Below, in pieces: positions 6,110 through 57,964 of a DNA stretch of 64,000 nt (position 1 is the first letter of the stretch; each line of letters starts with the position of its first letter). Source of the DNA: Trichobilharzia regenti (Eukaryota > Platyhelminthes > Trematoda > Strigeidida > Schistosomatidae). The notes below the pieces were generated by a model that worked only from the letters and a program-made list of their open reading frames with translations, did not search any database and had not been told where the DNA came from. The stretch is taken from the NCBI GenBank assembly GCA_944472135.2, contig OX235262.1, forward strand, positions 83,116,903-83,180,902, read 5' to 3'. The position numbers were made by a program, and so were the translations under genes.

Positions 6110-6136
6110 GTGAACTTCTACCGACAATCTTGTAAG
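6110..6136 (-). CDS. Micro-exon, 27 nt (YKIVGRSS)
   Basis: Acceptor aaattaaatttcttcag and donor gtaagtaaaact flank 27 nt. Phase 1 reads YKIVGRSS. The 42+27 pairing with the exon at 7631 mirrors 37350/37151, which supports both calls. It is the last confident exon in the direction of transcription; no stop codon has been reached. Confidence 0.7.
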
Positions 6137-6471
6137 CTGAAGAAATTTAATTTGTATCATTAGTTTAAAACTGGCCCAAAATATGTTCAATATCTTAAAG
6201 CGATGAACTTGTATTCATCATTTAAATACTACAATATTAACGTTAAAATTGTAAGTATGAAGGAAGATTTAATCTGAAAAAACGCACCAACACTTGTTTA
6301 GTCATTCAGTTTGATAATATGCATAGGAGTGCTTGCCTTTTATCCTAAAGCGCAAAATTTTTGCTGCATCCGTCTTTGTTCGATTCAGAATTATATAAGC
6401 GTTGAAAGTTCTAGTCGACTTTATGGTAGAGACGTATACAATTAACTGTTTCATTCTTCTATATTATTGTT

Positions 6472-6693
6472 TTTTTCCTTCACGTTCCCTTCACGTTCAA
6501 GCTAGGGGCTTGAAGTTTCTGTAGCAGTGTTTATTTTTACAGGATGGGGTTGCTAGCCTCATGCCTAACCTTTCCTCTTTACCAGCATTATTTCTGGCGT
6601 AGAGAGGTAAAGGAGTGCGTCATTGGCCGGGGATCGAATCCCAGACCATGTGTATGGTCGGCAAGTGTCCTAACTGCTGTGCCACTGACGCAC
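6472..6693 (-). repeat. tRNA-derived SINE-like repeat
   Basis: Minus strand: head ggcacagcagttaggacac with box B gggattcgatcc, then the family tail (tgaggctagcaaccccatcc, taaaaataaacac). Very similar to the copy at 18785. Confidence 0.65.
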
Positions 6694-6869
6694 TTCTATA
6701 TTATTATCTTTGCATATTTGAAACAGCTAAACACTGATGGCAAAATATTGCTCATGATAATTGATAAAGTGACCACACAACTTTCAAACGTCACTTCATT
6801 TGTTGTTTACTTATCTTCTAAAACATTTCATTAAAACCTACTTATATTATTATTTTTTTTATTATGGCT

Positions 6870-7026
6870 TGATTCCACACAGTATTTCAGGTACAACTAT
6901 GAAACTTTCAGCATGTGATATCGATAGCCAAATTTAGCAGGCTGACCAGTGATATCAGGTGTCCAGGAACGAACCCTGGACTATGTGCATGGTCGGTGGG
7001 CGTCCTAACTGCTATGCCACCGAATC
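6870..7026 (-). repeat. tRNA-derived repeat, second tail type
   Basis: Minus strand: head ggcatagcagttaggacgcc with box B ggttcgttcc, then a tail mentioning 'tatcgatatcacatgctgaa' and ending 'gtgtggaatcaagcc'. The same tail follows the tRNA-like head at 47005-47190, so it is a separate subfamily sharing the tRNA-like head. Confidence 0.6.
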
Positions 7027-7630
7027 AAATAATTACGTACATAAAATCTTAACATAACTGGAAGAATTCTTAATATGCTATCATATTCAGAAAGGATTGC
7101 AAGGATTTTTGCAGATGTTAAATTAGAGCAGGACTTAAAATCATTAACCTGTTCAAATGATGAGATTTAAACAAGAATAACAATGGGAAGTGAAGGTATT
7201 CAGGTCAAAGTTACTCATATGCTGACATTAAAAACGATATTAGACAAAAACTAATCTAAATTTTAACTTGATATACTGGTTGATATGAGTAGAGTTCAAT
7301 TACTCATATTAAGCAATAGGCCCAATTTATTGCCTTTAATCTCATAGTTTCTTTTCCAGTTTGCATAGGTTTTTCTACCGCAGACTATTATTTGTACATG
7401 TGTGAACTGTCTAATAACAGAATAATATATCCGCGGTTAGTTGCTTTAGTTGGACTACAAATTATTAGGTATTAAAAATATTAGTACTATTTTAAATTTT
7501 TCTGGTAATCTATCTTAATTGCTAATTAGCAGAAATCACTTATTAACTTATCATTTAAACTCTTATTTAAGGATAAATATAGAAATTACATAAATCTGAA
7601 ATAAATGGATCATCATCTGTGTTTACTTAC

Positions 7631-7672
7631 CGCGTTTTACAATCACAGGGTCTGTCTCATAATCTGCCCATA
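7631..7672 (-). CDS. Micro-exon, 42 nt, acidic segment ending in K-R
   Basis: Acceptor cttcttttctcttccag is one of the best pyrimidine tracts in the window; donor gtaagtaaac. Only phase 1 is open (WADYETDPVIVKR). Apparent paralogue of the exon at 37350. It lies 29.5 kb from the previous confident exon, so it may belong to the same long gene or to a neighbouring paralogous one. Confidence 0.8.
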
Positions 7673-8269
7673 CTGGAAGAGAAAAGAAGTAGAAGGTTAG
7701 AGATTAAGTACAATTTTCAAGTGTCTACGCATTGAGGATGCATATTTTCAAAAGTCTGTCAGGAAGTGAATCTTAGAAAACCAAGTCCAACAGTTCGAAC
7801 AAAAAATTCCGATGGAAACTCTTCCAGAGTCTTCAGTGTCATAAAATGATATGCCCCCTCACTCAACAGTTAACAGTTCGTCTTCAGGTACTGGTTTATA
7901 TAGATTCAGCTGATTTCAGGATAGGTATCCACATTAACCGCAGTACATTGGTAACTGAGAGGAATTGGAATTCATGGACAATTAGATTCTGACTCTTGTA
8001 ATTCCAACATTATGAGTTAGACCCTAAATAAGATCAATGGTCTGCGCTGCAGAAGAATTCCAAGGTAGGTAGAAGCAGTTACACACCACTTTCAATTTCC
8101 TAGCAATTCATTCTCTTGAGCAGACTCAACTAAATTTGTTGGTGCATAACAATCGAAATTGGGAAATGCGTATGATCGGATATTAAATCAGGTATATCTG
8201 TATCCTAATGAGTTGATACTTGTTTAATATAATAAGTCCTTGGATTTGAATTTGCAAAGCTAATTTGGT

Positions 8270-9440
8270 CATATTGGTTTGTTTATTAAATGTATCACAA
8301 AGTGAAACAGTATTATTATTTACTGGATGACGTTTCGAACAAACTTTATTGCTCATAATCATCTCATCGATTGTAATCACACGACTTCAAAATTTGAGTT
8401 CTATAGTTTTCTTTATTCTCTCCTATTTGTCGAAGGGGTAGCAGAATTTCCCACATGTCTGAGTGGACAGGTGTTGAATCACTCTTATTGCACTTATTTG
8501 CATTTGATATGATGATGATGCTGATGATAGTATTAGCAGTGATAATCATAATAATAGTAATAATAATGGTAATATTAACGACGACACACGTGTCAAACAT
8601 GCACAAGGCGATGATAACACCAACAATAAGGAAGCTAAATCAACAGTAGTATTTCCATACAAAGAAGGAACCTCGAAAACCTTACGCAGAATTTTTAACA
8701 AGGCAGGAATAAAAGTGACCGACATTCAAACCAACCACAAACTCAATTAGAAACAACCTTTGTTGGCTAAAGGATCCTGTGGAGCCTTTGAAACAAAACG
8801 ATTGAGTTTGTCTATTACCCTGCAATGATTGTCAGGTCAAATACATTGTTCAAACTAGTCGAACAGGGGCAGTCAGACTAGCTGAGCATGAAAACCTATC
8901 AACATCTATATTATAGGTTTCCAGACTGTAGGTGTGACGAACTTCCTGGAATAATTTTAGCGCCAAGTCAGACTGATTCATTAGAGATTAATGTAAATAA
9001 TTTATAATGAACACTTATATTAGTTGACCCGAATAAGAATAGAAATTTAAAGAATAGTGCAGCCATAGCACCCACTACATGCAATTACACACAACCACAC
9101 CAATAGGGTGCATGGAATAAGATGACGGTTTTAAAATCTGATGTCACAGGGTGGAGGAAGAGATTGATAACAGAAGCTTTGCAAATACATGTATTAAGAA
9201 TGATTCAACACCTGTCCAGTAGGACATGTAGGAAATTCTGCTACCCCTAAGATGAATAGGAGAGAACAAAGAAAACTATAGAACTCAAGTTTCGAAGCCG
9301 CGTGATTTTAACTGATAAGATGATAATGGGCAATAAATTTTGTTCTAATCGGCATCTAGTGAATAATACTTTTTACTGTGTGATACATCTGACAAACAAA
9401 CTAATATGGAATTACTTACAACCACAGTGCCCAAGTTTTA
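8270..9440 (+). mobile_element. Penelope-like element fragment with inverted arms (PLE copy 2)
   Basis: The plus-strand core (about 8580-9170) encodes a decayed PLE tail: STVVFPYKEGTSKTLRRIF, then a VKYI..QTSRTGAVRLAEH-like GIY-YIG block with stops and frameshifts, then the C-terminal EW-rich part. The left arm 8270-8510 is an inverted copy of the right end 9177-9405. The right end continues to an 'acagtgcccaagtttta' terminus that also begins copy 1 in reverse. An ATG/ATA microsatellite marks the inner edge of the left arm. Confidence 0.75.
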
Positions 9441-10307
9441 TAAATATACTAATTTGATCAGTAAAATTCTGTTGACGCCATCACTTTAAGAAACATTTAT
9501 GTGGCAATAATTAGCAGACGTGAAACAGTATGACATAATCTAGGATAAATCACGCTCAACCACACATTTATTTTTTAAAGAGTTGGGTCTAATAACCTTC
9601 CTTTCTCATAATGTAGAGGACTCAGACTTTCGCTGACTATTTCAGTTCTTGTTTTACACTCCACCGAAGATCTTTATACTCACAGTGAAAAAATATCAGA
9701 TGTAAGTAATCCGTTGTTTTAAAGAAGCTTCAATCACCGACCACCTTCACCCAAAAATGTTTAAAAATTTAAGTTTTGTGAGCATTTTACTATTAGACTG
9801 TGAACAATTACTTACTGTCAGTATATAAAACTTCAGAGTCACAGCAATGAATAAGGACAGCGAGACCCAATATCTTTAGAGAAAAAAATATTCCATTAAA
9901 AAGTATCATAGCTTATTACTTACCAAGAGCTTAATCATTGCCAAATGATTAACAGTTAGTTATTCTGATTAAAAAAATAATCCCAACATATTTATATGCA
10001 ACAAAGGCTATCGACATTTCACACGGTGTATTGACTGTCCAATTACAAGGGAATTTCAAAGATTACTTTTTCTCACCTTAAAGCTATAAAACCTTGTTGC
10101 ATACTAACACCTTTTTGTCTTTACGGAGCTAACCACTAATCTCTGTTACCTAAGTTAATTTTCACCTGAAAAAAGGAATATATTCATATGCACTCTATTA
10201 GGGAAGAGAATGACTATTAGTGCTGGGTCTTAAATTCTGCCTTGCAAAATGTATTTTGCCTCCAGGACAAAATCATTTAGCCTAGATAGACTTAAAGTAA
10301 TCCGGAG

Positions 10308-10445
10308 ATTTTGGACATGACTGTTTTTAAATATTCAAGTGCTGGTTTGTAGGGATTTGATTGGTTACAGGATTTCATCATGAGCTGACATTGGTAAGAG
10401 AACCATTTGAAAACCTAGGAGTACTGGACAGCGACTTACCGTATT
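10308..10445 (-). repeat. SM-alpha-like repeat, 3' part
   Basis: The minus strand matches the family end (cagtactcctaggttttc ... gtcagctcatgatgaaatcc ... acaaaccagcac). The ribozyme-like part is cut off at about 10435, where a plus-strand copy begins, giving a head-to-head arrangement. Confidence 0.65.
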
Positions 10446-10775
10446 TAGTTAGGTAGTTACCTGGGGTTCCAGTGAGAAGTTGTGACCAGTAGAGTGCAGC
10501 AGGTCGAGTATGAGGACAAATATTCGCCGAAGATATTGGCTAGGGGTCAAGCTATGTCGTGAATTGGCAGAAGTTAGAATTCATGGACTGGCCATTGGAT
10601 CGGGTCCCAATGGCTTAATGGTCTACGAGCTCACCTAGTAACCAGGAGGTCCTGGGTTCGAACCGTGGTGGTGGGTGCGTACTGATGAAAAGTCCAAAAC
10701 TAGGACGAGACAGCTGTCCAGTACTCCCAGGTGGTTTTCCAATAGTTCTCTAACCAATGTCAGCTCATGATGGAA
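10446..10775 (+). repeat. SM-alpha-like tRNA/hammerhead repeat, near full length
   Basis: Order of parts: a 5' leader (tggggttccagtgagaag), a tRNA-like segment at about 10600-10670 with box A tggcttaatggtctacgagc and box B gggttcgaacc, a hammerhead-like segment at 10678-10726, and a 3' part ending gtcagctcatgatgg. In the ribozyme part stem II (GTCC/GGAC) is intact, but C3 of the core is A and GAAA reads GAGA, so self-cleavage is not expected. Known: schistosome SM-alpha elements are tRNA-like SINEs with hammerhead ribozymes. Confidence 0.75.
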
Positions 10776-10789
10776 TCCTGTTTTGAAAT

Positions 10790-10945
10790 ATAAGTATAAA
10801 ACTTGGGCACTGTGGTAGAGTATAATTCCATCATAGATAAGATTTTATTCTGATAAATCGCACAGTGTTTACAGTTATATGAACTGATATATAACTGTAA
10901 ACACTGTGCGATTTATCAGAATAAAATCTTATCTATGATGTTTTG
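10790..10945. repeat. Perfect 52-bp inverted repeat with 8-nt spacer (PLE terminus)
   Basis: Bases 10829-10880 are the exact reverse complement of 10889-10940; the spacer gaactgat is at 10881-10888. The left flank (aaacttgggcactgtggtag) matches the terminus of the PLE at 59130 and of copies 1 and 2. Inferred: a solo fused pair of PLE ends. Confidence 0.9.
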
Positions 10946-11652
10946 AAATAGTTTAGCAAACTTTTCATACTTATGTCATGAACACTATCAAAATCACACT
11001 AAATAAAAGTAAGTATATTCTAAGAAGAAGTCAAATTCGTTAGCACGTCTTGCAAAGAAAACTTTTAAGCGACTTAATGTCACTTTTATTGTTTATTCAA
11101 AGTAGCTCTTAGACAAGATACTTGTGCCCTTGAGTTACAAAAACTCTTGCTAACAACTATTTCAGTTAGCATGTGTTGCTCTAATATCTGTCAGTAATTT
11201 TTTTATTCAAACTGGCTGCATAGGAAATAAGTTACACCAAAGATTGAGTAACTGACACACTTTCAATTACAAAATTATCATCTTTCTGGATTTCTTCATA
11301 AAAATAATCCACAGTTACTGCGAATAAGACACCTTAATGAGAACTTCTTCTTAATGTAGTTAAACAACATGGATACTTCAGTTTTATTAGTTGTATGTGC
11401 ACGAATTGTGCATTTCAGGAGTAAAGTAATTTCACTGGCATAATGTTTTTCTCACTCAAAAGCAACACACTTTCGGTTTAAGAAACCATGAAAGTCAATT
11501 AAGTTATTTACATTGAGAACTAGGTAAACTCCATAGTAGATGACTGTCAACTGTAACTCTGATCATTCAGAAATAAAACAAAATGAACCTATGAACTAGA
11601 ATTTCTTACAAACTAAATTGCTTTCAAACTAAAGAGAAAGTAATTTTCTCAC

Positions 11653-11673
11653 CAATGCCAAACATCCTGCGTG
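11653..11673 (-). CDS. Possible 21-nt micro-exon (RRMFGI)
   Basis: Acceptor attgtttctctcctgag and donor gtgagaaaat flank 21 nt, open in phase 1 (RRMFGI). Length and phase fit the series and would place it between the exons at 37151 and 7631. There is no paralogue to support it. Confidence 0.35.
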
Positions 11674-11967
11674 CTCAGGAGAGAAACAATATTTTTTTGA
11701 TTGAGCGCTTCGTGTAAGGGGTTGAAATAAAACTAGTTGCATCTTATGTAGATGGATACTTTGATTCGCTTCTTCAGCGAATGAAATGAAATGTATATGG
11801 TTAACGTGGGGTTTATTCAATTTTTAATCTAGTTTCCAGTTTTATTTAGGTGATTTTTGACTAAGTAAACTAGTACTGTTATTTTATAGCAAATAGAAAT
11901 ACAGTAGGACATTTTAATTATATATATCCTGTCAGTAATATGAAAGTGCTTTCTTCAAATTGCCTCA

Positions 11968-12095
11968 CTGAAGAGTTCCAGGCTAGGACGAAACAGCTAT
12001 CCAGCACTCCCAGGTTTCCCAGTGGTTCTCTAACTAATGTCAGCTCATGATGAAATCCTGTAACCAATCAAATCCCTATAAACCAACAACTGAAT
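11968..12095 (+). repeat. SM-alpha-like repeat, 3' half with the hammerhead core
   Basis: Begins within the ribozyme segment: CTGAAGA (11968-11974), stem II GTTC/GGAC, GAAA (11990-11993) and cleavage-site ATC (11999-12001) all match the hammerhead consensus. The 5' stem I strand is missing because the copy is 5' truncated. The rest is the family 3' part. Confidence 0.7.
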
Positions 12096-12134
12096 GCCTG
12101 ACTAACTGTAGGATAATGAAGAGACGTTGGAATT

Positions 12135-13230: not shown

Positions 13231-13520
13231 AGGATTTCATCATGAGCTGACCTTGGTTAGAGAACCATTGGAAAACCACCTGAGAGTACTGGACAGCTGT
13301 CTCGTCCTAGTTTTGGACTCTTCATCAGTACGCACCCAACACCACGGTTTGAATCCAGGACCTTCTGGTTACAAGGCGATCTCCCATACAATTAAGCCAC
13401 TGGGACTTGATCCAATGGCCAGTCCATGAATTCCAACTTCTGCCAATTCATGACATAGTGCTACTATTAGCCAATATCTTAGGCGAGTATTTGTTCTCAC
13501 ACCCTCCCCGCTGCACCCTT
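13231..13520 (-). repeat. SM-alpha-like tRNA/hammerhead repeat
   Basis: Minus strand: leader, tRNA-like segment, then GTACTG-ATGAAGA-GTCC...GGAC-GAGA-CAGCTGTC-CAGTAC. Stem I (GTACTG/CAGTAC) and stem II (GTCC/GGAC) pair fully, but core positions C3 and A14 are mutated. It faces the plus-strand copy at 13525. Confidence 0.75.
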
Positions 13521-13524
13521 GGCT

Positions 13525-13795
13525 AAGGGTCGCGCTATATCGTGAATTGGCAGAAGTTAGAATTCATGGGACATTGGATCCAGTCCTAGTGTCTTAATGG
13601 TCTACGAGCTCGCCTCGTAACCAGAAGGCCCTAGGTTAGAACCCTCATTGTGGGTTAGTACTTCTGGAGAGTCCCAAACTAGGACGAAACAGCTGTCCAG
13701 TACTCTCAGGTGGTTTTCCAATGGTTCTCTAACCAATGTCGGCTCATGACGAAATCCTGTAACCAACCAAACCCTTACAAACCAACACTTAATTT
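13525..13795 (+). repeat. SM-alpha-like tRNA/hammerhead repeat
   Basis: tRNA-like segment at about 13590-13645; hammerhead-like segment at 13657-13705 with CTGGAGA (A6 changed to G), stem II GTCC/GGAC, intact GAAA and cleavage site GTC. Head-to-head with the copy at 13231, so the pair could fold into a long imperfect hairpin. Confidence 0.75.
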
Positions 13796-15110: not shown

Positions 15111-15114
15111 AAAT

Positions 15115-29329: not shown

Positions 29330-30995
29330 CGACAAGTAAAATGAAACTGTGTTCAGTTGAATGCGCGATAAAGTATGTAGCCACTTTTTATGAGAGAGTG
29401 AAATGTTTCAAGACTTGTAGTTATATCATATTAAGTTCGTTCGACGTCTAGCACCCACTCAGAATTACTTTTAAAGTTTGCATTAATTTGATAGATATAT
29501 CTTATAACCGTTAACATGAAATTTAATTGAGTCTATCTAAACTTTGGATCTGTGGAATACTGATTCAAAGCTTTGAAGGTTATTGTCGTCTAAAAAAGCT
29601 ATGGGGTGATGAGTCTAGAAACACAAACTCTAAGTAATGGTCTGTTAGTTGTTTACTAACCGTTGGATTAGATTTGTGAACCGATATCCACCTAAACCGC
29701 ATCATTTTATCACTTACTGATGAAGACGGTTCCAATCAGAAAACGTTTCATCTACTGGAACAAAATCCATACAGGAGGTTGAAAGACCTCATAGACAGTA
29801 TGTCTTCCCAATCCCATTTAAATGTAAAAGAATAAAGAAACTTTTTAATGCAAACTATATTTCCATATCAATAATACGTCAAAATAGTAAAACATTTTAT
29901 CCACAGAGCATAATAATGTTATCTGAAAAATAACAATTCCCACTGAGTAACACAAATTAAATTAATTGGTTTTCCATAATCATTCTTTTTCAGGGAAAAA
30001 AACTAATTGGTCTTTCATGAAAGAAGATAGTGGGCACCTAAGATGGGTAACATCCAACCAACTATGTGCTTGATTAACACGGAGTAAGAAAGCCAGCTGT
30101 GAGAATCTGAAAAGTAAATTAAGCAGAATATATGTTTAAAACATTTATGAACGCGTATTCGCAAGTAATGATCCGAAAGTATGAGATAGTAACGTCTAGG
30201 TAAACCACAAATGTATTGTTCAATATACATAGAAATAGCTACAATGAAATCAGCGCCTAAATGTGCTAAAAGACTTTAAATATCAACCTGATGCTTCAAT
30301 CTACCTATATATATGCTTCTGTTCAAAACTCTGTCGGATAAACAACAAAATTTCAAACAGACTGAAAGCTAATTTATGCAAATATCTCTAGTGCATTCTG
30401 TGACTTTCTTGCTTTTTGGAAAGATTACTAATTACTGTGAGATTTGAAAAGACTTTAAAAGAACTACTTAGGCTAACCTACATTCCAAACTTTCAAATTA
30501 ATTGTTAGAAAAATTTAATGCTTATTGCCTTATCAAATCATAGAAAAAACTAGATGAAATCGTATGACTGATTCACAAACTTCGCAAAAGCTGCCATAGT
30601 AGAAAATGACCTGCATTGTGTATTCACCAAATGAACAATATCATGAAAGTGACGCGTCATTTACAGGAAAATCTACGACTTATATAATGATGATAATAAC
30701 TTTATTCTAAACAGTACTTACAAATTGAACATCCTGCCGATTTGGAGCCTGTGAGGAATAATTGAGCCATAAATTTATTATTATTTTGTTGTAAAAAATC
30801 CTAATAAATATAGGATTTAGTTTAAATATGCATACTGAATTACATAAATGCATGAAACTATACGTTACTGACTGAGAGAATGACATGAACGCTTGCTAGG
30901 CCGGTCAAAGTGGTCTGAGCACCAAAAATCTATTTTACAAGTTTGTGGCCGAGTTAACCATTCGTGTACACCATTCGACTGAGCTTAGGGAGTTC
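29330..30995. other. AT-rich stretch without a gene
   Basis: No convincing coding, RNA or transposon signal. Confidence 0.35.
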
Positions 30996-31899: not shown

Positions 31900-33390
31900 G
31901 CTAGCTGTGTGAAGTGTTAAGATCAAAAATCAAGTTTTTAATATGCCATTTAGTTCACAGCTTTACAAATAAATTTTCAATTTACACAGGTCGAGGTAAT
32001 TATTTTATCAGTTTACTTCAGAAACCAAAATTATTCAGTTCAGAATATGTGATCTGATTGACACTATAAATAACAATCAGGAAATCAAGCATAAATGAAG
32101 ATCACATATTGTGATCTGAATAAATTCACTAGTGAAATTACACCTAGAAATGTGCGAATTGCAAATTACGCACTTGATTTCTGTACTTCTGTGACGACAG
32201 AAGACAAGGGTCAGGCAACAGATCGTTTATCTAGGAAATCAACACATATTTATATACTTTCATGTACATTATTATAGATTATTGTAAGCAAACAAACACA
32301 GTCTTCTGATTGGTGGTTTCTCACTGAACGTTAATCTTTCATCTCTTTGTGGCCGTTAATTGAAGTTCAGATTATCTATCTGCAAATCGTATCCACCTAC
32401 GCAAAGTCTGCTGGGATTGGTTGTTGAATCAGTCTTTGTTCTTATTTTTCTCACGACCAATATTGGCTACTTAAACATTGACGTAAATTCCTGTCTACCA
32501 ATTTAGGCCAGCAGCTAGCCCTCACCACACTTCTACCGTGACTTCAGCTTGTCTCCTTATCTGGCATCCTTTTCCTTGAGTAACTGCCAACAAAAAATTG
32601 TAGGATGACAGTAAACATGCAGACATACATTTACCACTGATTATGGGGGGTTTTGTACATCGAATTCCCACGAATATTAGTCATAGATCAGTATTTCTGG
32701 GACGGAAGAAATAAAAATCAACAATGTTTTACTATTGAAAGTTAACCACGTATCCTATTTTATCAACAAGGAAGTAAAACACATAGAAAAGTCGTTTAAT
32801 GGTAAACAGTTAATGTTGGATTTTTGATCAATCCACGGTTACTTGTCCAAAACACATAAAATAAGTTATAGAATTGCTATTATGCAAACAGAAGCTTACG
32901 TCGTTCACGTCGACTTCTAGTATAGTTTTTAATTCTTTCCACTACAGCTAAAATGAATATAAAACAAAAGTTTTTTATTAATCATCGAACTAAGTTTAGT
33001 TCAAAGTTCAAAAATAGAAAAAAAACTTTCAGGAGAATACTGTGATGTTGTGTGATGTTCTTCCCTTAGAAATGGAATTTCTTGTAAGTTACATTACAAC
33101 GTATAAAAAAACCAAGTTAAACCTTATTTACATATGGTTACATGCTTCATGAGAAGAACAACTTTCTTCCTCTATGGGCCCCTGATTATGACTGAACTAG
33201 TCTGAAGTTATACATAATGGAATAATCTCCATTGGACAATTCAGAATTCTTTCAGAGGAGAATGCTGACGTCACTTTCAGCCAGTCACTTACTTCTTAAA
33301 AATTGTTCAAAGACGTTATTTTCACTTCGATTTACAGTTACTCTGTCAGATGATAATAGATATGAGGAAAAATTTTTCATCTCATCCCCA
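31900..33390. other. AT-rich stretch without a gene
   Basis: Nothing recognisable. A splice-like pair at 32896-32912 gives a 17-nt segment that breaks the length rule of the micro-exon gene. Confidence 0.35.
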
Positions 33391-37150: not shown

Positions 37151-37177
37151 CTCTAGTCCTTTGGAATCTTTTATGGG
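37151..37177 (-). CDS. Micro-exon, 27 nt, basic (HKRFQRTR)
   Basis: Acceptor cgttttatcttgcag and donor gtgagtcctgc. Phase 1 reads HKRFQRTR. It lies 172 bases downstream of the 42-nt exon; the acidic-then-basic order repeats at 7631/6110. Confidence 0.78.
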
Positions 37178-37349: not shown

Positions 37350-37391
37350 CTCTCTTGGTCTCGTGATCATCCTTCTCATCTAATTCAGCGG
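37350..37391 (-). CDS. Micro-exon, 42 nt, acidic segment ending in K-R
   Basis: A run of nine T before acag forms a strong acceptor; the donor is gtgagctttc. Only phase 1 is open (AELDEKDDHETKR). Same length, same acidic character and same terminal Lys-Arg as the exon at 7631. Like that exon, it is followed by a 27-nt exon. Confidence 0.83.
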
Positions 37392-39395: not shown

Positions 39396-39443
39396 GTTTG
39401 TCAACTTTCGTTAGTGATGAGTTATCGCTTACCAGTTTGGAAG
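39396..39443 (-). CDS. Micro-exon, 48 nt (SKLVSDNSSLTKVDK)
   Basis: Acceptor ttttattttctttctag and donor gtaagttacaag. Only phase 1 is open. Begins Ser-Lys like the exon at 57917. An internal CTG/gtaagc after base 11 could act as an alternative donor but would not keep frame. Confidence 0.8.
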
Positions 39444-39624: not shown

Positions 39625-39785
39625 AATACGAACTCGCCTTGTAACCGGAAGGTTCTGGGTTCAAATCCCGGTGGGTGCGTACTGCTGAAAAGTCCCGAAC
39701 TAGGACGAAACAGCTGTCCAGTACTCTCAGGTGGTTTTCCAATGGTCCTCTAACTAATGTCAGCTCATGATGAAATTCTGAAGCC
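39625..39785 (+). repeat. SM-alpha-like repeat with the best-paired hammerhead stems
   Basis: From box B (gggttcaaatcccgg) onward. The ribozyme segment at 39679-39724 has perfect stem I (GTACTG/CAGTAC) and stem II (GTCC/GGAC), intact GAAA and cleavage-site GTC. The core reads CTGAAAA, so the invariant G8 is A, which should abolish cleavage. Confidence 0.75.
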
Positions 39786-41840: not shown

Positions 41841-41888
41841 CACCACGATAATTCATTGGAATTCCTACTTTGATCGCTACACCTGAGT
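41841..41888 (-). CDS. Micro-exon, 48 nt (SGVAIKVGIPMNYRG)
   Basis: Acceptor cctttttaattatag and donor gtgagtagtcatg. Phase 1 is open and encodes a less charged, more hydrophobic segment than the other modules. No close paralogue seen in the window. A PLE fragment lies just downstream in the same intron region. Confidence 0.78.
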
Positions 41889-42620: not shown

Positions 42621-42743
42621 TAATAATATATTTTTATTATATGAAGTTATTCTACGAAGAAACTGTACTCTACCATAGAGTTCAAATTCTAGTCTTATAT
42701 TATTAAACCTCAGTTATTTTTAAAGCTCACTAATTTTAATAGC

Positions 42744-43901
42744 TTGATTATGACGTTCACGTGCTGCTATAGCAGACTGAAAACAAACCACTCTGTCGAT
42801 CGGGAAGTTCTCTGGAGATGCTTGGCTGTAAAGGGAATTCCAAGAAAATATATTGCACTGATTAAGGCACTCTACTCGTACTCACACAGCCAGGTGAGGG
42901 CTTACGGCGAGCTGTCATCTGAACTGATGACGACCAGTGGTGTCCGTCAAGGATGCCCATTATCTCCTTTTCTATTCAACTTCATCATAGATGTGTTAAT
43001 GGACTTAACCCTAGGTGACTTCAGTGACTCAGGGATTGACTTGCTACCTGGGAATAATCTCGTTGACTTGGAATATGCAGACGATATAGTCCTTCTAGGC
43101 GAAGACGCTGACGAAATGCAGAGTCTTCTAAACACCTTGAGCCGCAATCTACGAATGTTTGGCATGCGATTCGCTCCAGCCAAATGCAAGATGATGTTAC
43201 AGGACTGGACTACATCGACGCCTAGTTTAAAAATAGGAAGTGAAGTGGTAGAGCACGTTGACCGCTTCACTTATTTGGGAAGTACCATCAGCCCCAACGG
43301 GCTGATCTCTGACGAAATCTCAGCACGAATACAAGGGGCTCGTTTCGTATTTGTTAGTTTACGCCGTCTCTGGCGTAGACGAGATGTTCGACTATCGACC
43401 AAAGGGCGGGTGTACTGCTCATCAGTCCGCTCCGTCCTCCTGTATGGTTGTGAGACCTGGCCACTCAGAGTGGAAGACATGAAAAGACTAGCTGTCTTTG
43501 ATCATAGGTGCCTGCGTTCTATTTCCCGTGTAAAGTGGCATAATAAGGTGAGCAACATTGAGGTTAAGCGTAGAGTTCTAGGTAAACAGGGGAAATCAAT
43601 CGACGAAGTCGTGAAGCTACAAAGACTGAGATGGTTAGGACATGTGTTACGTATGCCAAGTCATCGCCTCCCTCGACGAGCTATGTTAGCGGATATAGGG
43701 TCAGGCTGGAAAAAAGCTAGCGGCGGTCAAACAAAAACTTGGCCTCAGTCAATGAAATCCACAACAGTTGGTCTAAGCCGCGTAGGAAGGTGTAGACTTC
43801 CAGGCTGGGGTCCTCGGGACGGTAAAAATCTATGGTTGGAAACAATTGGTGACATGGCTCAAAACCGTTCTCAGTGGCGCAGATGCATCCACTCCCTGTG
43901 A
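42744..43901 (+). CDS. Non-LTR retrotransposon reverse transcriptase, 5'-truncated, 385 codons open
   Basis: The longest open frame in the window. Residues 65-75 are SGVRQGCPLSP, 111-114 are the catalytic YADD, 177-180 the YLGS block, 234-239 YGCETW, and about 296-304 RWLGHVLRM. These appear in the usual order of palm, thumb and C-terminal domain of a non-LTR ORF2. The first conserved RT motifs (fingers and motif A Asp) and the endonuclease are missing: homology starts at about residue 16 (HSVDREVLWRCL), so the ATG at 42744 is not the native start. The C-terminus (QNRSQWRRCIHSL, stop at 43899) is natural-looking. The 3' UTR runs to a GACA-repeat near 44086-44095. Known: such ORF2 proteins reverse-transcribe their RNA at nicked target DNA. 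Inferred: a recent but 5'-truncated, inactive insertion. The clade is not certain from motifs alone. Confidence 0.85.
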   Translation: MIMTFTCCYSRLKTNHSVDREVLWRCLAVKGIPRKYIALIKALYSYSHSQVRAYGELSSELMTTSGVRQGCPLSPFLFNFIIDVLMDLTLGDFSDSGIDLLPGNNLVDLEYADDIVLLGEDADEMQSLLNTLSRNLRMFGMRFAPAKCKMMLQDWTTSTPSLKIGSEVVEHVDRFTYLGSTISPNGLISDEISARIQGARFVFVSLRRLWRRRDVRLSTKGRVYCSSVRSVLLYGCETWPLRVEDMKRLAVFDHRCLRSISRVKWHNKVSNIEVKRRVLGKQGKSIDEVVKLQRLRWLGHVLRMPSHRLPRRAMLADIGSGWKKASGGQTKTWPQSMKSTTVGLSRVGRCRLPGWGPRDGKNLWLETIGDMAQNRSQWRRCIHSL

Positions 43902-44440: not shown

Positions 44441-44482
44441 GATTTTTATGAGGCTTGTGGATACCTCTGTAATGCGGAGAAA
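44441..44482 (-). CDS. Micro-exon, 42 nt, SPH type
   Basis: Acceptor ttctattttgtag and donor gtaagtgtataat. Phase 1 reads SPHYRGIHKPHKN. Paralogue of the exon at 54727: same length, same first 12 bases, same internal AG after base 16. The internal acceptor would give 26 nt and shift frame, so the longer form is preferred. Confidence 0.8.
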
Positions 44483-46701: not shown

Positions 46702-46713
46702 CTGGTCGTCGTT
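46702..46713 (-). CDS. Micro-exon, 12 nt (R-R-P)
   Basis: A 12-nt exon between acceptor ttttttcttgacctattacag (a good pyrimidine tract) and donor gtaagctgattc. Phase 1 gives Arg-Arg-Pro. Partner of the 12-nt exon at 57078; both immediately precede, or nearly precede, a 42-nt SPH exon. Confidence 0.75.
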
Positions 46714-47190: not shown

Positions 47191-47618
47191 AACCCTCTCC
47201 TAGCATTATATTTCATTTGTTGTTACCTGATTAATTTTTAGGAGGTCTGCAGGTGAACACTACATGCTGCAATCATATGTAAGTTGCTTACATTGTGGGC
47301 AGTTATCTATAAGAAACAATATTTCCACATTCAATAAATAAACTTAATCAAACAAAGTGAAACCAAAATGAAGGGAAATAACAATTGCCTAAGGCTCATC
47401 GATCTAAGAGCTTCGTTCTCAACCATCGGATCACTAGTTTAAAATTCAACGCAACTGGAAATAGGTGTGGTCCATTGTCAGTCAGATGCATAGATATGAA
47501 AGTGAATGTTGAGTCGGATTTCTTCGAAGATAATGTCGCCCAGCAAAACTTGATCCCAATGAATAATGGCTACTTCATAATAACGCGAAACTTTGCATTA
47601 TATGTATACGTTACTTAC

Positions 47619-47672
47619 GCTTAGTAGAATTGATTGGAGATCGTGTCACTTTCAAATGCCTCACAGTGGAAT
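47619..47672 (-). CDS. Micro-exon, 54 nt, N-x-T repeat module (long form)
   Basis: Acceptor cccgattatttgacag and donor gtaagtaacg. Only phase 1 is open (STVRHLKVTRSPINSTK). The longest exon of the set, with two extra codons at the 3' end adding a second Asn-Ser-Thr. It sits 141 bases downstream of its paralogue at 47814. Confidence 0.83.
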
Positions 47673-47813: not shown

Positions 47814-47861
47814 TGCTTCTCCTGGGAGACCGTGCTATTCTCACTTGCCTTGTAGTTGGAT
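47814..47861 (-). CDS. Micro-exon, 48 nt, N-x-T repeat module
   Basis: Acceptor tttcttaacttggttttacag and donor gtaagttaaactg. Phase 1 reads PTTRQVRIARSPRRS, strongly basic. Its ARSPRRS end matches the TRSP of the exon at 47619. Its 5' half matches the exon at 53001. Confidence 0.85.
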
Positions 47862-49222: not shown

Positions 49223-49270
49223 TTGATCTATGAGTAAAAGGTGGCTTTTTCACTGGTAACTTAGTTAAAT
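49223..49270 (-). CDS. Micro-exon, 48 nt, N-x-T repeat module
   Basis: Acceptor tttgtttatatttacag and donor gtaagaccattc. Only phase 1 is open (LTKLPVKKPPFTHRS). With the split codon the junction reads Asn-Leu-Thr. Closely related to the exon at 50294: both start with a TAACTAAG-like block followed by a P-x-K motif. Confidence 0.85.
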
Positions 49271-50293: not shown

Positions 50294-50341
50294 TATCTTT
50301 CCGAGGATATGGTGTCAATTTTCCTGGTATCTTAGTTGAGT
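50294..50341 (-). CDS. Micro-exon, 48 nt, N-x-T repeat module
   Basis: Acceptor tacctttctttgtag and donor gtaagttaaactg. Only phase 1 is open (STKIPGKLTPYPRKD). The codon split across the upstream junction is AAC, so the joined sequence begins Asn-Ser-Thr, an N-glycosylation sequon spanning an exon boundary. Confidence 0.85.
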
Positions 50342-52200: not shown

Positions 52201-53000
52201 GAAAAGTGTTAACAGCATACGAGGGCAGAGATGAACACAGTAGGATAAAAAAAGTCAGCACCAATAGTCACCAAGAGCGAGCATCACCTAGAGAGTTGGA
52301 GAGGCTGCGCTCGAACAATTTTGACAGGAATACATGTGCCATATGTGCTACTAGTGAAAATTTATAAGCAGTATATTTTGCATGATGCTTTCATCAAAAA
52401 TCTTGAATAGCGAAATGGCGGATAAAGTGGCGATTAGGAGAAATGCAAAGATTATTCGTGAAATAACATAAAAAGCACAAAATGTAGACTAAAGAATGAG
52501 AATACGAAGAACTTTTACAAATGGAAATATCAGCGCAGAGTTTCTGTATTTTGCAATCACTGTAAATTATAAGCTGATTAAGTATCCTGCTGTCAAATAC
52601 ATCTGTGTTCTTCCACACACAGAGAGCTAAAATTCCTAGTCACTTGTCTTTTAAGGGTGTGATCTGTGTCTTCTCGGTTTAAGAATAGTAGTGCATTAGT
52701 CAGGTACTCATTATCGTTCGTTGAAATACTGTTAATCTTGCAACAAGTCAATTGGGAGAATGCATTATCTGGTCACTTGAAGCATATTAAAACTATACCT
52801 TTGTTTTATGGCAAACGCTCTATGGAATGATAGAAGTGACGATACGAAGCAATGTCGACTAAGAAATATGGAGGTGCCAGTAGAGTTTTTGTTTAAAAAT
52901 TCAAATACGATACACAGAATTATTGTAAACGCTTAAAACGGTTGAAAATTCAAAGGTGAAAAACATAAATCAGAAATCACTTCATTTTAGTTTAACTCAC

Positions 53001-53048
53001 TCAATTTATTAGGCAATGTTACCACTCTTACTGGCCTCCTAGTTGGAT
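53001..53048 (-). CDS. Micro-exon, 48 nt, N/H-x-T repeat module
   Basis: Acceptor ttttatatattatag and donor gtgagttaaact. Only phase 1 is open (PTRRPVRVVTLPNKL). The first 20 bases are close to those of the exon at 47814, and the donor flank gt(a/g)agttaaact is shared with the exons at 50294, 47814 and 58180, suggesting tandem duplication of exon plus adjoining intron. Confidence 0.85.
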
Positions 53049-53197
53049 CTATAATATATAAAAGTGATTAAGAGATTTCTTTTCTAGGATATTAGATAAA
53101 CAAGAAGAGTAAATTACCGATGAAAACACCTTTCAATAATAATAAATATTTAAAATGATGAAAGTAGTGTATTAAAATTTATTTCATTTCAGCTTAC

Positions 53198-53236
53198 GGG
53201 TTCTCAGAGTAAATTTCACTGGCTTCTTAACTGTTT
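53198..53236 (-). CDS. Micro-exon, 39 nt, P-V-K module (short form)
   Basis: Acceptor tttatctattgacag and donor gtaagctgaaatg flank 39 nt. Only phase 1 is open, encoding TVKKPVKFTLRT. It carries the T-x-x-x-P-V-K pattern of the 48-nt modules but is three codons shorter. It lies only 149 bases before the next module exon. Confidence 0.78.
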
Positions 53237-53689
53237 CTGTCAATAGATAAAAACATACAAATAACAGTTGAAAACTTTCTTCCATACTTCAGTAAGGGTA
53301 ATAAGATATTCTACAACAAATATGATCAGTCAAAAGATGCATATATAATTCAAATATTTATATTGGCCTTTATCTGATCATGTTTCAATTGAATACGCGA
53401 AAATAAGTACTAATCCCTTTCATAGCCTGAATGATAACATTCTCATAACTTAATCAGAATTACTCTGAACATAGGCACACTGGTTACGAGCTTAAGACCA
53501 CAATAGAATAGTCTTCAGTAAAAGCAAGGGTTTCACAATCACTGCTTAACTGAAATCAAGTGATGATATAAACCTTTGAGTAGCCCATCTTATGGTGACC
53601 TTTAACTTAACTCTCATGACACAATACTACTTAAACGATACTGGTAACACATGAAATTCATTGTTAAGGAAAGTTTTGATGTTATTAGA

Positions 53690-54110
53690 TAGTTGAAGGC
53701 AATCGGCCACAGGCAGCTGTCGACCTAGGTTTCGCGCTAATTGTCACTCGTCAGCAGGAAGTCATGTCCCTTCTGAGATTCTAACCCGCGTCACCTAGTA
53801 CTGAAGTCAGAGACGCTTTCACTCAGCTATTCGGGCTTGCGACTGCCCTCCTGTAGGACTGTAGTGGGTATTTTGATTGAACACAAGTAACTAGTGTGAC
53901 GTGTCTAGTCCTTTCTTTGGTGCTGAATAAATTCCATCAGTCAGGTTTGCAACTATCTAATATCACCAAATCAGTGTGCACGGTGATGGTGAGCTGCCTA
54001 GAATGGTGGTAGCCACACTGCAAACCTGACTGACAGAATTCCGGCTGTACCAAAGAAAGGACTAGACACATCAGACTAGTTACTACTGTCCAATCAAAAG
54101 TTTTGATTCT
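53690..54110 (-). repeat. Composite tRNA-like repeat plus foldback element
   Basis: 53700-53850 is the tRNA-like segment on the minus strand (gaatagctgagtgaaagcg, then a degraded box B). 53885-54095 is an imperfect inverted repeat. Left: agtaactagtgtgacgtgtc ... cagtcaggtttgca. Right: tgcaaacctgactgacag ... gactagacacatcagactag. The third copy of this composite in the window. Confidence 0.7.
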
Positions 54111-54726
54111 ATTATAAAATCTTATTGATTTGCAATCCAAAATATGATTAGTTAATGAGAAACATAATAATAATAATTTAAACGACTTCCACTGACATTG
54201 TTTATTCAAAATGAATAGCAATCACTGTCTTATTTCATTGATCAAGAGAATTTTGCTTGTTTTTGTTTACAAATAAAACTAAGCAGACAGTTAACAAATA
54301 AACAACAGATCAACAAGAAAAGACTTATTATGGTGAAGTTAAAATGTAGGAATTTCGTGGTATTTATTTACTAATGATAAGACTACCTCAAATGCCGCTC
54401 ATTTAGTGGGCTGTCGTCAATGTAGCTATACATAAATGTGAGTTGCCTTAGAATTTGAATCAGCCACCTCTAAATTACAAGTATGACTCACTATTAGCTG
54501 ACATACACTGACCAACTTCTGGTTATGTCAAAAATTATGACAGAATGAGCATTATAGGAGAGCAATACTACTAGGCATGTTCCATGAAAAGGCAGATGTA
54601 GTAATTAAATGCATAGTTTTCTTGATAAATCTTGATATTTGTCTTTTTTCAAATAAATTATTAGGAAATTCTGAGTAAAATCTGGCAATAATTCAAAGTT
54701 TAAAGTCATCATTTTATTATACTTAC

Positions 54727-54768
54727 CGTTTGGACTAGGTGTACTTATTGCTCTGAAATGCGGAGAAA
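54727..54768 (-). CDS. Micro-exon, 42 nt, SPH type
   Basis: Flanked by acceptor cgcgcattttag and donor gtaagtataat. Only phase 1 is open, encoding SPHFRAISTPSPN. The first 12 bases (TTTCTCCGCATT) match the paralogous exon at 44441, and both are 42 nt. An internal AG lies 16 nt into each exon, a possible alternative acceptor that would break frame. Confidence 0.82.
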
Positions 54769-54844
54769 CTAAAATGCGCGACAGAAAAAAAAATAGAATC
54801 AGCTTACGGTTATCACATGTTAATGAAACAAACAGCGGGCAATG

Positions 54845-55738
54845 AGAGAACAGCCATAAAATGGACTCACACAAAAACTTGGAGGATCTGGACTTCGCCG
54901 ACGATGTATTTATGTCTGATTTCCCACAAACTGGAAGATATGCAAGTGATGAAAAGCAACAAGTTGGCAGAAGAAGCATAAAAGATAGGACTTCAGGTGA
55001 ACATAGAGAAAATAGAGGTGATGAAGATTCCTAGCCAACACCAACAGCAACAACAACAACAGACAACAACCAGTCAGCATAAATGGGAGTAACCTAAAAG
55101 AAACATACTCCATAACCTACCTACCAGGGAAGCGTCGTTTCACCTACAGGCGGAACTGACAAGGACATCAAAGCCAGAATCGGAAAAGCAAGACAAGCTT
55201 TCATTACTCTTAAGTCTGTGTGGAGGTCAACAGCACTCAGAATCAAAAATAAGATCCGGATTTTCAACTCCAATGTGAAGTCAGTCAGTGCTACTATACG
55301 GATCAGAGACTTGGCGAGTCATAAAGAGCACATCAAACAAACTACAGACCTCTATGAACAGTTGTCTTCACTCACTACTCAGGATCAGATGGCCAGAAAA
55401 GATCAGCAACAGGGATCTCTGGAAATGAGCGAACCAACCGAACAGGAACCGATTGTGAAACAAATAGGCAGGAAGAAATTGACATGGATTGGCCATACTC
55501 TGAGGAAACCATCAGGTGATATCACTAGGCAAGCTATTGCTTGAGTGGAACCCGAAAGGGAAGCGGCGATTTGGTCGTCAGTGCTAGGGTGACTTGGAGG
55601 AGGTCATGTGAATAGGAGATGAAAGCATGTGGGCAGACGTGAAGCCAGATGAAAACGTTGGCAGAGGACCGAACGCAATAGAGACACATGGCTGAAGCCC
55701 AATGTTTCTCTAGGAAGTAAAGGAAATAATAATAATAC
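54845..55738 (+). mobile_element. RTE-type retrotransposon, RT motif C to 3' end
   Basis: Plus strand: NLEDLDFADDVF (54872-54910) contains the catalytic Asp pair. Then come a Thr/Gln-rich stretch, GGTDKDIKARIGKARQAF, LKSVWRSTALRIKNKIRIFNS, QEPIVKQIGRKKLTWIGHT and SGDITRQAIA, with frameshifts between. The 3' end is 'aaataataataatac' at about 55738. It is opposite in sense to the micro-exon gene and lies between the exons at 55795 and 54727. Confidence 0.82.
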
Positions 55739-55794
55739 AGCACTTACTTCATAACTAAAGCATGCTTAACTACAATTTACTTACAATTAGAATT

Positions 55795-55818
55795 TTTCGT
55801 TAGAAGCTCTGACTTTCT
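55795..55818 (-). CDS. Micro-exon, 24 nt (LLTKNSN)
   Basis: Donor gtaagtaaattg is strong. The acceptor chosen is the AG of agaaagtcag, because it gives a 24-nt exon open in phase 1 (LLTKNSN) while the other two frames stop. Upstream AGs would give 28 or 32 nt and break symmetry. The LTK core resembles the SLTK of the exon at 39396. Less certain than its neighbours because several AGs compete. Confidence 0.6.
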
Positions 55819-56449
55819 GGTGAAGTAAGAAGCAGACATCAGCTTGTTTCTATTATAAATACATGCCTTTTGAGCCAGACAGAATAATATTTTTAGAAAC
55901 TAAACACACTGACTTATAGCTTTCATCAATCTAGCTACAAACCACATTTGATGTCATAAGTTCATAAAATAATATGGCAGTGTTATATACGTTAGATTAA
56001 ATACTGAGTATCCGTGTTGTCTTTTTCGTTCTTCCAAAAAATGAAAAGTATTGAGAATCAGGCATAAGTCATATCTACTGTCTCCAGTCACTAACTCCAG
56101 TAACCAAATAATTTGTGGTGAATTCAACTCTAGATCATTCCAGTTAGCAGACCACACAGTGATACCGCATTAATAAGTGGATGACGTTTTGAGCACATTA
56201 TATTGCTAATAATTCACATGAGTGTCAGTTTGTGTGGGTTATATGAAATCAACTTGTTTATTTTAGAGTTACATTATACCAAAGAACCGAAATTCTTCAC
56301 CCACATAATTTCCTGTGTTGATCGTTTACACAATGATAACTTGACTCTCTCATGGCAATCTTTGGAGGATAATTACTGTTCATGATAATAAAAAAAACAT
56401 TTTTCCTATTCAAGTGAATGCTGCATATGATTGATAGTTGTTGTTACAG

Positions 56450-56730
56450 GAAGATTTCAGAGTGGTGTCCGCGCTAAAATCACGATAGAACCGATAGAAG
56501 TTAGAATTCAATGACCATTTAGTCTGTCCCCAGTGGCTAAATGTTCTGAGAGCTTATCCTGTAATAAGAAGGTCCTAGATTCGAATCCCAGCGATGCGAA
56601 CAGCTGGTGAGACCCAGACTGGGGGGAAACATCTCTCCAGTAGTCTGTGGTTTCCACTAGTCCTCTTAATGCGATATCAACCCTTGGTCAAACTTAAAAC
56701 AAATCCGGATAAGCATCCAGTCAGTAATTT
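56450..56730 (+). repeat. Diverged SM-alpha-like repeat
   Basis: Leader (tagaagttagaattcaatga), tRNA-like segment (cagtggctaaatgttctgag; box B tagattcgaatccc), ribozyme-like segment reduced to CTGGTGA ... GGGGGAAAC, and a changed 3' part. The oldest-looking copy. Confidence 0.5.
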
Positions 56731-57077
56731 TTCACTTCATTTAATTATACCGCATTTCAAAAACATCTTCGTGACGAGATCACTTTTACTTGTTTAAGAT
56801 AACTATAAGCAATGAGCACTACACTGCTTTTATTCGTTATTCAGGAGAATTTAACAACACTTAGAATCACCTCAAACAAATACAACACTATATATTTATC
56901 ACTTATTGTAATCGAACTGGAGATTACTTGTGCTATTCAGCTGGGAGGTATTCAGTGGTATCAGGTGCACAATACTTATACGTCTATCAGGATCTTTCTT
57001 GTTATAAAATGATGCAAAGAAAAAATATTCACCGCACTTTCACAAATAAGAATTCAAATAGAAATTTTGTAACTTAC

Positions 57078-57089
57078 CAGGTCGCTGAC
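57078..57089 (-). CDS. Micro-exon, 12 nt (Q-R-P)
   Basis: A 12-nt exon between acceptor caaaacctttag and donor gtaagttac. In phase 1 it gives only Gln-Arg-Pro plus the split junction codons. It resembles the other 12-nt exon at 46702 (Arg-Arg-Pro, also ending in G), and each lies upstream of a 42-nt SPH-type exon (here with a 24-nt exon between). That makes a chance splice-site pair less likely. Confidence 0.68.
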
Positions 57090-57469
57090 CTAAAGGTTTT
57101 GACAAAAATTATGAAAAAAGTAGCTTCAACATTATTTATGAAGTAAATAGTTTGCTTAAAACTAATTAAAATTCATTTCTGCCACAGTAGAGTATGCCTA
57201 TAAAACATGGTATACTGAATACACAGTATGTACTGTAGAAGGTATTTTCAGATTATCCGATTTCTTCATATTTATTTTATCCAATATGGTCAACCCAATA
57301 ATGATTCTTTCGCAAATTCCAACTTGCTTACTTGTTAAACTTGTTAGTCTGACAACAGACTTTCCAAGTGTCAAAAATTCACTGCTTCTCGCTTCAGTGT
57401 ATTAGAGAATTCTTTCCTTTACGCGACGAATTAGTCAAAAATTAATACATGAGTGGTTTAACAGTAGAA

Positions 57470-57665
57470 TGCTAGTCAGCTTTGCACGTGGCCTAATGTA
57501 TGACTCCCAACCAACGTACTGCTAAACCTCGATTCGCTAATAGCATACCGCATAAAGGGTGAAGATTGGACATGAGTATCGTAACCCTAACCCGTAAAAA
57601 TGACGATACCGCTGCTTTTGAAACCTCAAAGCTGATGCTTGAAGCCACATATTCATCCCATTTGG
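57470..57665 (+). repeat. Degenerate tRNA-derived repeat
   Basis: Tail blocks 'cccgtaaaaatgacgatacc', 'gctgcttttgaaacctcaaa' and 'gcttgaagccacatattc' follow the order of the family tail at 44910. The head has lost recognisable boxes. Confidence 0.45.
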
Positions 57666-57916
57666 AATGCAAAAATGAAAAAGATCTACTATTATGAATA
57701 TTGGATAACAGTATGATTCCTCCATATTGGCATTAAATACCATTCATATAGGTTTGAGCTGCTTTGAATTTCGCTAATACCTTATAGACCTACGTACAAG
57801 CAAAGTGATAAATGCTCAAATAAACATCAATAATCTCAGTGGAAATCTTTTTCAGTCAAGAGTATAGAATCAATGACTAAGACCTTCAAAACTGATTTCC
57901 TTTTACCGCAACTTAC

Positions 57917-57964
57917 TGTAATTGACAGAATGGCGTTTTTCATCTAGTGGATCTGACTTTGATT
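57917..57964 (-). CDS. Micro-exon, 48 nt, charged segment
   Basis: Acceptor ttattctttcgcag and donor gtaagttgcg flank 48 nt. Only the phase-1 frame is open; the other two hit stops. It encodes SKSDPLDEKRHSVNY plus split codons, a charged, unstructured-looking segment. It is the most 5' confident exon of the minus-strand gene. The last base (A) joins the next exon's GT to make Ser. Confidence 0.8.

Follow-up and report, generated by a model that had tools for sequence, protein, structure and literature searches.

On its minus strand, a 64,000-nt window from the bird schistosome (bird blood fluke) Trichobilharzia regenti (C1:83116903-83180902 of the 954-Mb assembly, on a 197.6-Mb contig) carries a gene, here called gene 1, that is built almost entirely of short, symmetric exons and whose 20-exon translation is identical over 297/297 residues to the public T. 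regenti protein A0AA85JP53. With a probability of roughly 0.7, gene 1 belongs to the micro-exon type and encodes a variable glycoprotein, secreted or on the surface, at the boundary between fluke and host, and thus resembles the micro-exon genes (MEGs) of schistosomes. The arrangement is most likely one of two neighbouring same-strand genes of the same design, the second of which (gene 2) is predicted.

Gene 1 runs from an ATG at 63768 to a stop at 30015 (33,754 bases) and comprises 20 coding exons separated by introns of 77 to 5,606 nt; a polyadenylation-type signal (AATAAA or ATTAAA) lies past the stop, at 29849. When the exon peptides, written with an X at each junction, were searched against 5.8 billion proteins, a single match emerged among 326 candidates (UniRef A0AA85JP53_TRIRE, 'Uncharacterized protein', T. 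regenti, 297 aa, E 1.2e-130). The exons, in the order of transcription, are the following; those of a repeat family described below are marked as family A.

Exon 1, 63709..63768, minus: 60 nt, ends in phase 0 at donor gtgggt; residues 1-20, with a second Met at 16
Exon 2, 63571..63631, minus: 61 nt, phase 0 to 1; residues 21-41, remainder of a hydrophobic, signal-peptide-like stretch
Exon 3, 57917..57964, minus: 48 nt, phase 1-1; residues 41-57
Exon 4, 57078..57089, minus: 12 nt, phase 1-1; residues 57-61
Exon 5, 54727..54768, minus: 42 nt, phase 1-1; residues 61-75; copy of exon 13
Exon 6, 53198..53236, minus: 39 nt; residues 75-88; probable short member of family A
Exon 7, 53001..53048, minus: 48 nt; residues 88-104; family A
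Exon 8, 50294..50341, minus: 48 nt; residues 104-120; family A; split codon makes sequon N104
Exon 9, 49223..49270, minus: 48 nt; residues 120-136; family A; split codon makes sequon N120
Exon 10, 47814..47861, minus: 48 nt; residues 136-152; family A
Exon 11, 47619..47672, minus: 54 nt; residues 152-170; family A; split codon makes sequon N152
Exon 12, 46702..46713, minus: 12 nt; residues 170-174
Exon 13, 44441..44482, minus: 42 nt; residues 174-188; copy of exon 5
Exon 14, 41841..41888, minus: 48 nt; residues 188-204
Exon 15, 39396..39443, minus: 48 nt; residues 204-220
Exon 16, 37350..37391, minus: 42 nt; residues 220-234; absent from the T. szidati model
Exon 17, 37151..37177, minus: 27 nt; residues 234-243; absent from the T. 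szidati model
Exon 18, 32900..32947, minus: 48 nt; residues 243-259; ends in the basic run RSRRERR
Exon 19, 30722..30748, minus: 27 nt; residues 259-268
Exon 20 (terminal), 30015..30106, minus: 92 nt including TGA; residues 268-297; hydrophobic C-terminal helix

All 17 internal exons from 3 to 19 (12-54 nt; 681 of the 894 coding nt, or 76%) are of phase 1-1, follow an AG acceptor, precede a GTRAG donor and have a length divisible by three; ten of them are open in phase 1 only. Among all ordered pairs of exons 2-20, none (0/171) forms a stop at the junction, which together with the phase 1-1 symmetry means that any subset of internal exons could be dropped. An earlier note, made from the letters of the window alone, had described this combination of splice signals, length and phase in a series of eighteen segments, eleven of them open in one phase only, and had proposed that any subset could be skipped. 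The combination recurs in 17/17 internal exons of gene 1, the ten exons just mentioned and an exon at 7631 that is assigned to gene 2 below likewise add up to eleven, and the junction count bears out the skippable design. The note's interpretation as a micro-exon-type gene with symmetric exons agrees with the public protein and with a relative in T. szidati from which whole exon groups are absent in frame. The span given there covers gene 1 from exon 3 onward but omits its start (63571-63768), and the term 'undescribed' was only partly right: the gene model was already public, but the protein is uncharacterised and one literature search by accession found no paper on it. The protein search suggested for the joined exons retrieved A0AA85JP53 from T. 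regenti, but no named MEG.

A search of the T. regenti genome with the gene 1 protein gave 12 matches, 11 in its own locus and one weak match elsewhere (E 0.46). By this measure gene 1 looks single-copy, and distant copies could be missed because several of its own short exons also escaped the search. On the minus strand of the gene 1 region, the phase-1 symmetric candidates 57332-57391, 54492-54518 and 47292-47306 are unused by the public model and are possible cassette exons. Other candidates, all absent from the public protein, were set aside: 54871 lies in DNA repeated in the window, 42731-42923 lies opposite a frame that matches reverse transcriptase, and 45284 and 41192 lie in or opposite long, transposon-like-looking frames in which no Pfam family was matched.

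The phase preference was also measured across the window, after masking of the DNA repeated inside it (24% of its length). A strict scan collected symmetric segments, 12-66 nt long and bounded by AG and GTRAG, in which the AG was preceded by at least 11/15 or at least 9/15 pyrimidines; nested acceptors sharing one donor were entered separately, so the resulting numbers are not independent. At the higher threshold, phase 1 was open in 16/16 minus-strand candidates (in nine it was the sole open phase), and there were 0 candidates on the plus strand. At the lower threshold, phase 1 was open in 35/44 candidates on the minus strand and 5/13 on the plus strand, and an order-3 Markov null produced 11.7 ± 4.2 phase-1-open segments, with a maximum of 25 in 200 runs. 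The contrast between strands and between phases is clear, and chance falls far short of the phase-1 symmetry observed. When other GT donors were admitted as well, in a looser scan, the signal was weaker: of 66 symmetric minus-strand candidates, 30 had phase 1 open, against 18 and 14 for the two other phases. With the flanking chromosome added and candidates counted in 20-kb bins over 304 kb, the phase-1 excess was marked from about -50 kb to +70 kb in window coordinates (e.g., 16/18, 10/13, 11/13, 15/18, and 7/8), with the exception of the 10-30 kb bin, where phase 1 was open in 1/3 candidates; bins outside this region, judged by eye, had no such excess. Minus-strand phase-1 candidates extend about 47 kb past the window start and then thin out.

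Part of the exon series arose by duplication. Exons 7-11 (five exons; probably six with exon 6) derive from a single exon and make up family A: up to 31/48 nt are common to a pair, and with a profile made from these five they score 42 to 50, the highest scores elsewhere being 9.7 (minus strand) and 9.3 (plus strand). The score of 9.7 belongs to exon 6 and is no better than chance; exon 6 is nevertheless probably a member, judging from its likeness to exon 8 (22/39 nt shared, p 1e-4, with 136 exon pairs tested) and from its intron start. For the introns after exons 6, 7, 8, and 10, each of the six pairs has 9-12 identical positions among the 14 of bases 7-20 (all-pair mean 4.5), which suggests that the copied unit was probably DNA that included part of the intron; the introns after exons 9 and 11 do not have this start pattern, and exons 3 and 7, otherwise unrelated, also reach 9/14. 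Exons 5 and 13 form a second duplicated pair (27/42 nt shared). The 12-nt exons 4 and 12 share 7/12 nt, which is not significant alone, and because they adjoin the 5/13 pair the array may be flanked by two copies of one block. Membership of exon 14 in family A was tested and is not supported (p 0.84). Family A encodes a basic motif of 16 residues that was copied in tandem long ago.

The N-terminus of the protein, split over exons 1 and 2, contains a hydrophobic stretch at about residues 16-34 by hydropathy, which is helical in an AlphaFold2 model. The model, built from one sequence only, has a mean pLDDT of 58; most of residues 52-216 fall below 50, and helices occupy residues 2-42, 46-51, 225-262, and 268-296. 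Residues 40-267 carry a charge of about +41 at pH 7.4 (pI 11.6), and basic sites (KR, RSRRERR) occur in exons 3, 16, 17, and 18; heparin-type basic motifs are not in excess over shuffled sequences (22 vs. 19.3 ± 3.2; 5 vs. 5.6 ± 2.2). Seven of the ten N-glycosylation sequons overlap a codon split by an intron. When the junctions were shifted round the protein, the mean was 2.2 junction sequons and seven were reached in 2/227 shifts, an excess that is suggestive only, because one exon, through its copies, supplies three of the seven. The gene 1 protein matched no Pfam family above the cut-off, and no relative was found in the PDB.

A search with residues 170-297 returned, among four candidates, an unnamed T. 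szidati product of 133 residues that carries exons 8, 9, 10, 13, 14, 15, and 18 in order and is without exons 11-12 and 16-17, in frame at the exon borders. All five sequons of the aligned part are kept in T. szidati, and exon 14 is identical at 16/16 compared residues. The pieces taken as exons 8, 9, and 10 are each best matched by their own counterpart, from which it follows that the exon copies predate the split between the two species. Read-through into the start of intron 18 in the window (32880-32899, minus) gives KLLFA and then a stop, as in the T. szidati product, where this ending may be a true alternative end.

Downstream of gene 1, a second gene on the same strand, starting at 9909 and running past the window start, would account for the segments at 7631 and 6110, on the basis of the following predicted exons.

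Gene 2 first exon, 9816..9909, minus: predicted; ATG, hydrophobic and signal-peptide-like, ends in phase 1 at gtaagtaa
Gene 2 exon, 7631..7672, minus: predicted; 42 nt, phase 1-1, 15/15 pyrimidines at the acceptor
Gene 2 exon, 6110..6136, minus: predicted; 27 nt, phase 1-1
Gene 2 exon, 4523..4555, minus: predicted; 33 nt, phase 1-1; the series continues below window position 1

Gene 2 is a putative transcribed unit, and its region outside the window is C1:83070824-83116902 (minus strand). From the scans, 34 candidate exons were picked by hand, leaving out 10440, two candidates ending at -3546, those at -4234, -4309, -5085, and -47968, and nested 39-nt forms of 45-nt exons; the 10440 candidate, which touches a repeat, is not in the public protein either. 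The 34 candidates span 55,988 bases (9909 to -46078), and their 33 joins contain 0 stops. They include exons in repeated cassettes. A unit of about 5.63 kb, which holds a threonine-proline-rich exon of 54-57 nt and a basic 45-nt exon, occurs as two full copies with 98.8% identity, a long but partial copy at 97.4% and some diverged pieces. A 2,228-bp unit with a pair of 48-nt and 45-nt exons forms an array at C1:83071432-83087451 of six full copies and two partial ones; identity to the query copy is 99.6-99.96% for the five other full copies and 96.9 and 98.8% for the partial ones. With copy numbers as in the assembly, the exon cassettes of gene 2 appear to have been amplified in tandem very recently.

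The evidence for the gene 2 start is weak when taken alone: chance alone would yield 0.47 similar starts on one strand of 64 kb (35% of 60 random sequences had one or more) and about 0.03 in the 3.7 kb above the 7631 exon, a span that was chosen afterwards. Eleven candidates for a terminal exon were examined and none was convincing. Among 130 peptide pairs between gene 1 and gene 2 exons, none passes correction as a mutual copy; the lowest shuffle p values (0.0005 and 0.001) both involve a 10-residue exon, and gene 1 exon 10 against a 45-nt gene 2 exon gives 0.0035. To the right of the window, a few minus-strand candidates of 12-30 nt, several of them lysine-rich, lie at 73197-84977 without clear phase preference, and a possible third gene at 73-85 kb was dropped, since phase 1 is open in 6/8 candidates of the 70-90 kb bin but phase 0 likewise.

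Apparent mobile-element sequences also occupy the window. Four type I hammerhead ribozymes exceed the gathering score of Rfam and lie at 13286-13331 (minus), 39679-39724 (plus; within intron 14 of gene 1), 13658-13703 (plus), and 10679-10724 (plus); schistosome retroposons carry hammerhead ribozymes, and those found here are presumably in short retroposons; they fit the origin of the window from T. regenti, a bird schistosome and not a Schistosoma. Long frames sit in introns 13 and 2 of gene 1: 42693-43901 (plus) and 62165-62458 (minus) contain the Pfam reverse transcriptase domain RVT_1, and 59379-59921 (plus) and 61505-62164 (minus) match no Pfam family at E 0.01. An Rfam mir-3492 match at 43263-43340 (minus; 53.4 bits) is probably transposon-derived, because it lies opposite the 42693-43901 frame with its reverse transcriptase domain.

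If gene 1 is a micro-exon-type gene, its hydrophobic N-terminus would bring the product into the secretory pathway, and the 17 phase-1 exons could be spliced in or out freely, with the frame kept and no stop at any join. The mature protein would be largely disordered, with a strong positive charge and many N-glycosylation sequons; because sequons are made or split at junctions, exon choice would alter both repeat number and glycan sites, and the hydrophobic last exon may anchor the product in a membrane. Protein diversity by exon skipping is possible from this design. A bolder version, in which the junction sequons (7/10) form a glycan code written by splicing, read-through of intron 18 makes a soluble form and the neighbouring gene is still expanding, is speculative and, taken as a whole, rather doubtful. 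Were it correct, exon choice would change the glycan sites in step with the repeat number and always leave the frame intact, and read-through, which gives the same five residues in two species, would release a form that is without the hydrophobic end.

Several observations weigh against a variable, MEG-like surface protein. In the AlphaFold2 model the helix at residues 225-262 (exons 16-19) scored well, and the middle is not wholly disordered. The C-terminal segment, possibly a membrane or lipid anchor signal, is weakly hydrophobic (best 19-residue mean 1.36) and contains one Lys and two His, which makes an anchor uncertain. Also missing from the T. szidati record are exons 1-7, 19, and 20, together with four residues from within exon 8; beyond exon 18 it closes with five residues translated from intron 18, its first residues only weakly resemble intron sequence near 54.5 kb (E 4.4), and so exon-poor a record may be a faulty gene model. 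Micro-exons in the strict sense measure 6-36 nt (PMC5825161, excerpt), a range that includes 4/17 internal exons of gene 1, the other 13 being 39-54 nt. Published excerpts describe a motif after the MEG signal peptide (F-L-hydrophobic-hydrophobic-F-X6-W-polar-basic) and Cys motifs in a red clade; a pattern search of the gene 1 protein for the post-signal motif, CGGL, a Cys-His-Cys pattern and, in part, the red-clade motifs found none of them, and a single CLY lies inside the hydrophobic start. Finally, with E values up to 10 allowed, no similarity to a named MEG was seen among 326, 561, and 4 candidates; the three protein searches returned only A0AA85JP53 and the T. szidati product, by a method that needs shared 5-residue words and limits length, so that distant relatives could be missed.

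Among other explanations, the one with most to recommend it is that gene 1 encodes a structural or matrix protein of an ordinary secreted kind, its exons duplicated and constitutively spliced and their symmetry a by-product of repeat addition. Exon duplication alone accounts for the equal phase within family A, and one protein is the only T. regenti record found; yet the exons outside the repeat family (3-5 and 12-19) are also all of phase 1-1, no junction stop occurs in 171 pairs and the T. szidati model differs by whole exons, so that this explanation is considered unlikely. The earlier note had proposed a single minus-strand gene of at least 52 kb, which would make exon 20 an alternative end. 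The segments from 57964 down to 4523 do share strand, phase and splice signals, and the gene 2 start exon is itself a prediction, of a kind that arises by chance at the rate of 0.47 given above. However, the public protein stops at 30015 with a hydrophobic tail, the segments at 7631 and 6110 lie outside A0AA85JP53, a signal-peptide-like start exon (9816-9909) stands just upstream of the 7631 exon, and no phase-1 excess bridges 30 kb and 10 kb (1/3), all of which make one long gene very improbable and fit two genes better.

A precursor of peptide hormones, cut at the basic sites in exons 3, 16, 17, and 18, would share the secretory-type start, but the repeats, judged by eye, are not regularly bounded by cleavage sites and the protein has ten sequons; such a role is more remote still. 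That the exon pattern reflects noise, in a region rich in introns and in AT, could be argued from the abundance of splice-like signals and from the presence of some candidates on the plus strand as well. For gene 1, chance is very unlikely and close to negligible in view of the exact match to a publicly annotated protein and the relative in a second species; gene 2 rests on prediction. The preferred explanation for gene 1 thus remains a MEG-like gene for a variable secreted or surface glycoprotein. MEGs are a leading idea for how schistosomes vary their host-facing proteins, and their fast change makes relatives hard to find. If the two-gene reading is correct, the pair would display old, diverged copies beside cassettes whose full copies are 99.6-99.96% identical, two stages of one process, and would make it possible to study how genes of this design expand and whether the choice of exons affects glycan sites.

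The comparison of gene 1 with known MEGs is drawn from excerpts of the published descriptions. In these, about 80% of the coding region of a MEG consists of short symmetric exons (PMC5825161); in gene 1, 17/20 coding exons are symmetric 1-1 and make up 76% of the coding nucleotides. Under a wider definition of micro-exons (3-81 nt; PMC10526429), 19/20 coding exons qualify at 12-61 nt, and the terminal exon measures 92 nt. Introns of published MEGs are given as about 0.1 to 5 kb, a range that holds 17/19 gene 1 introns, those outside it measuring 77 and 5,606 nt. Published MEGs are described as almost without exception secreted or membrane-anchored products of glands and tegument, with variants seen by proteomics (PMC5825161), and as rapidly evolving genes with short symmetric exons, repeats and a hydrophobic C-terminal part. 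T. regenti orthologues of MEG-4, MEG-8, and MEG-9 have been reported (PMC5825161), MEG-4 and MEG-8 matches are also tabulated in PMC4749378, and MEG-26 is treated in a supplement within the Trichobilharzia micro-exon literature; gene 1 was compared with MEG-4, MEG-8, and MEG-9 by description rather than by sequence.

The antigen 10.3 gene, MEG-4.1, is reportedly made from tandemly repeated exons (Davis 1988). As gene 1 would, it combines secretion, tandemly repeated exons and a hydrophobic C-terminus (PMC3723592; PMC3961193), but its repeats are of 81 bases with no N-glycosylation predicted in the excerpted account, whereas those of gene 1 are of 39-54 nt and carry sequons; MEG-4 members also share a 22-residue C-terminal motif. 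MEG-8 and MEG-9 are micro-exon genes that likewise have a hydrophobic C-terminal exon, but this exon starts in phase 2 (PMC5825161) and that of gene 1 in phase 1, a difference that rules out gene 1 as a MEG-8/9. MEG-14 has a signal peptide, a hydrophilic middle with repeats and a single C-terminal membrane-spanning stretch (PMC3723592). By hydropathy and repeats, gene 1 is roughly alike in the first three features and weakly so in the last stretch; MEG-14 is predicted to be heavily O-glycosylated, whereas gene 1 has ten N-sequons and a strongly basic middle, with no sequence match between them. Among the MEGs described, MEG-14 and MEG-4.1 are the ones that gene 1 would most resemble in its working. 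By strict exon size, reported motifs and sequence match gene 1 is not a MEG, but by architecture it is; it is MEG-like, belonging to this kind of gene and to no named family, and together with gene 2 it seems to enlarge a known style of gene by an uncharacterised pair rather than to represent a new kind.

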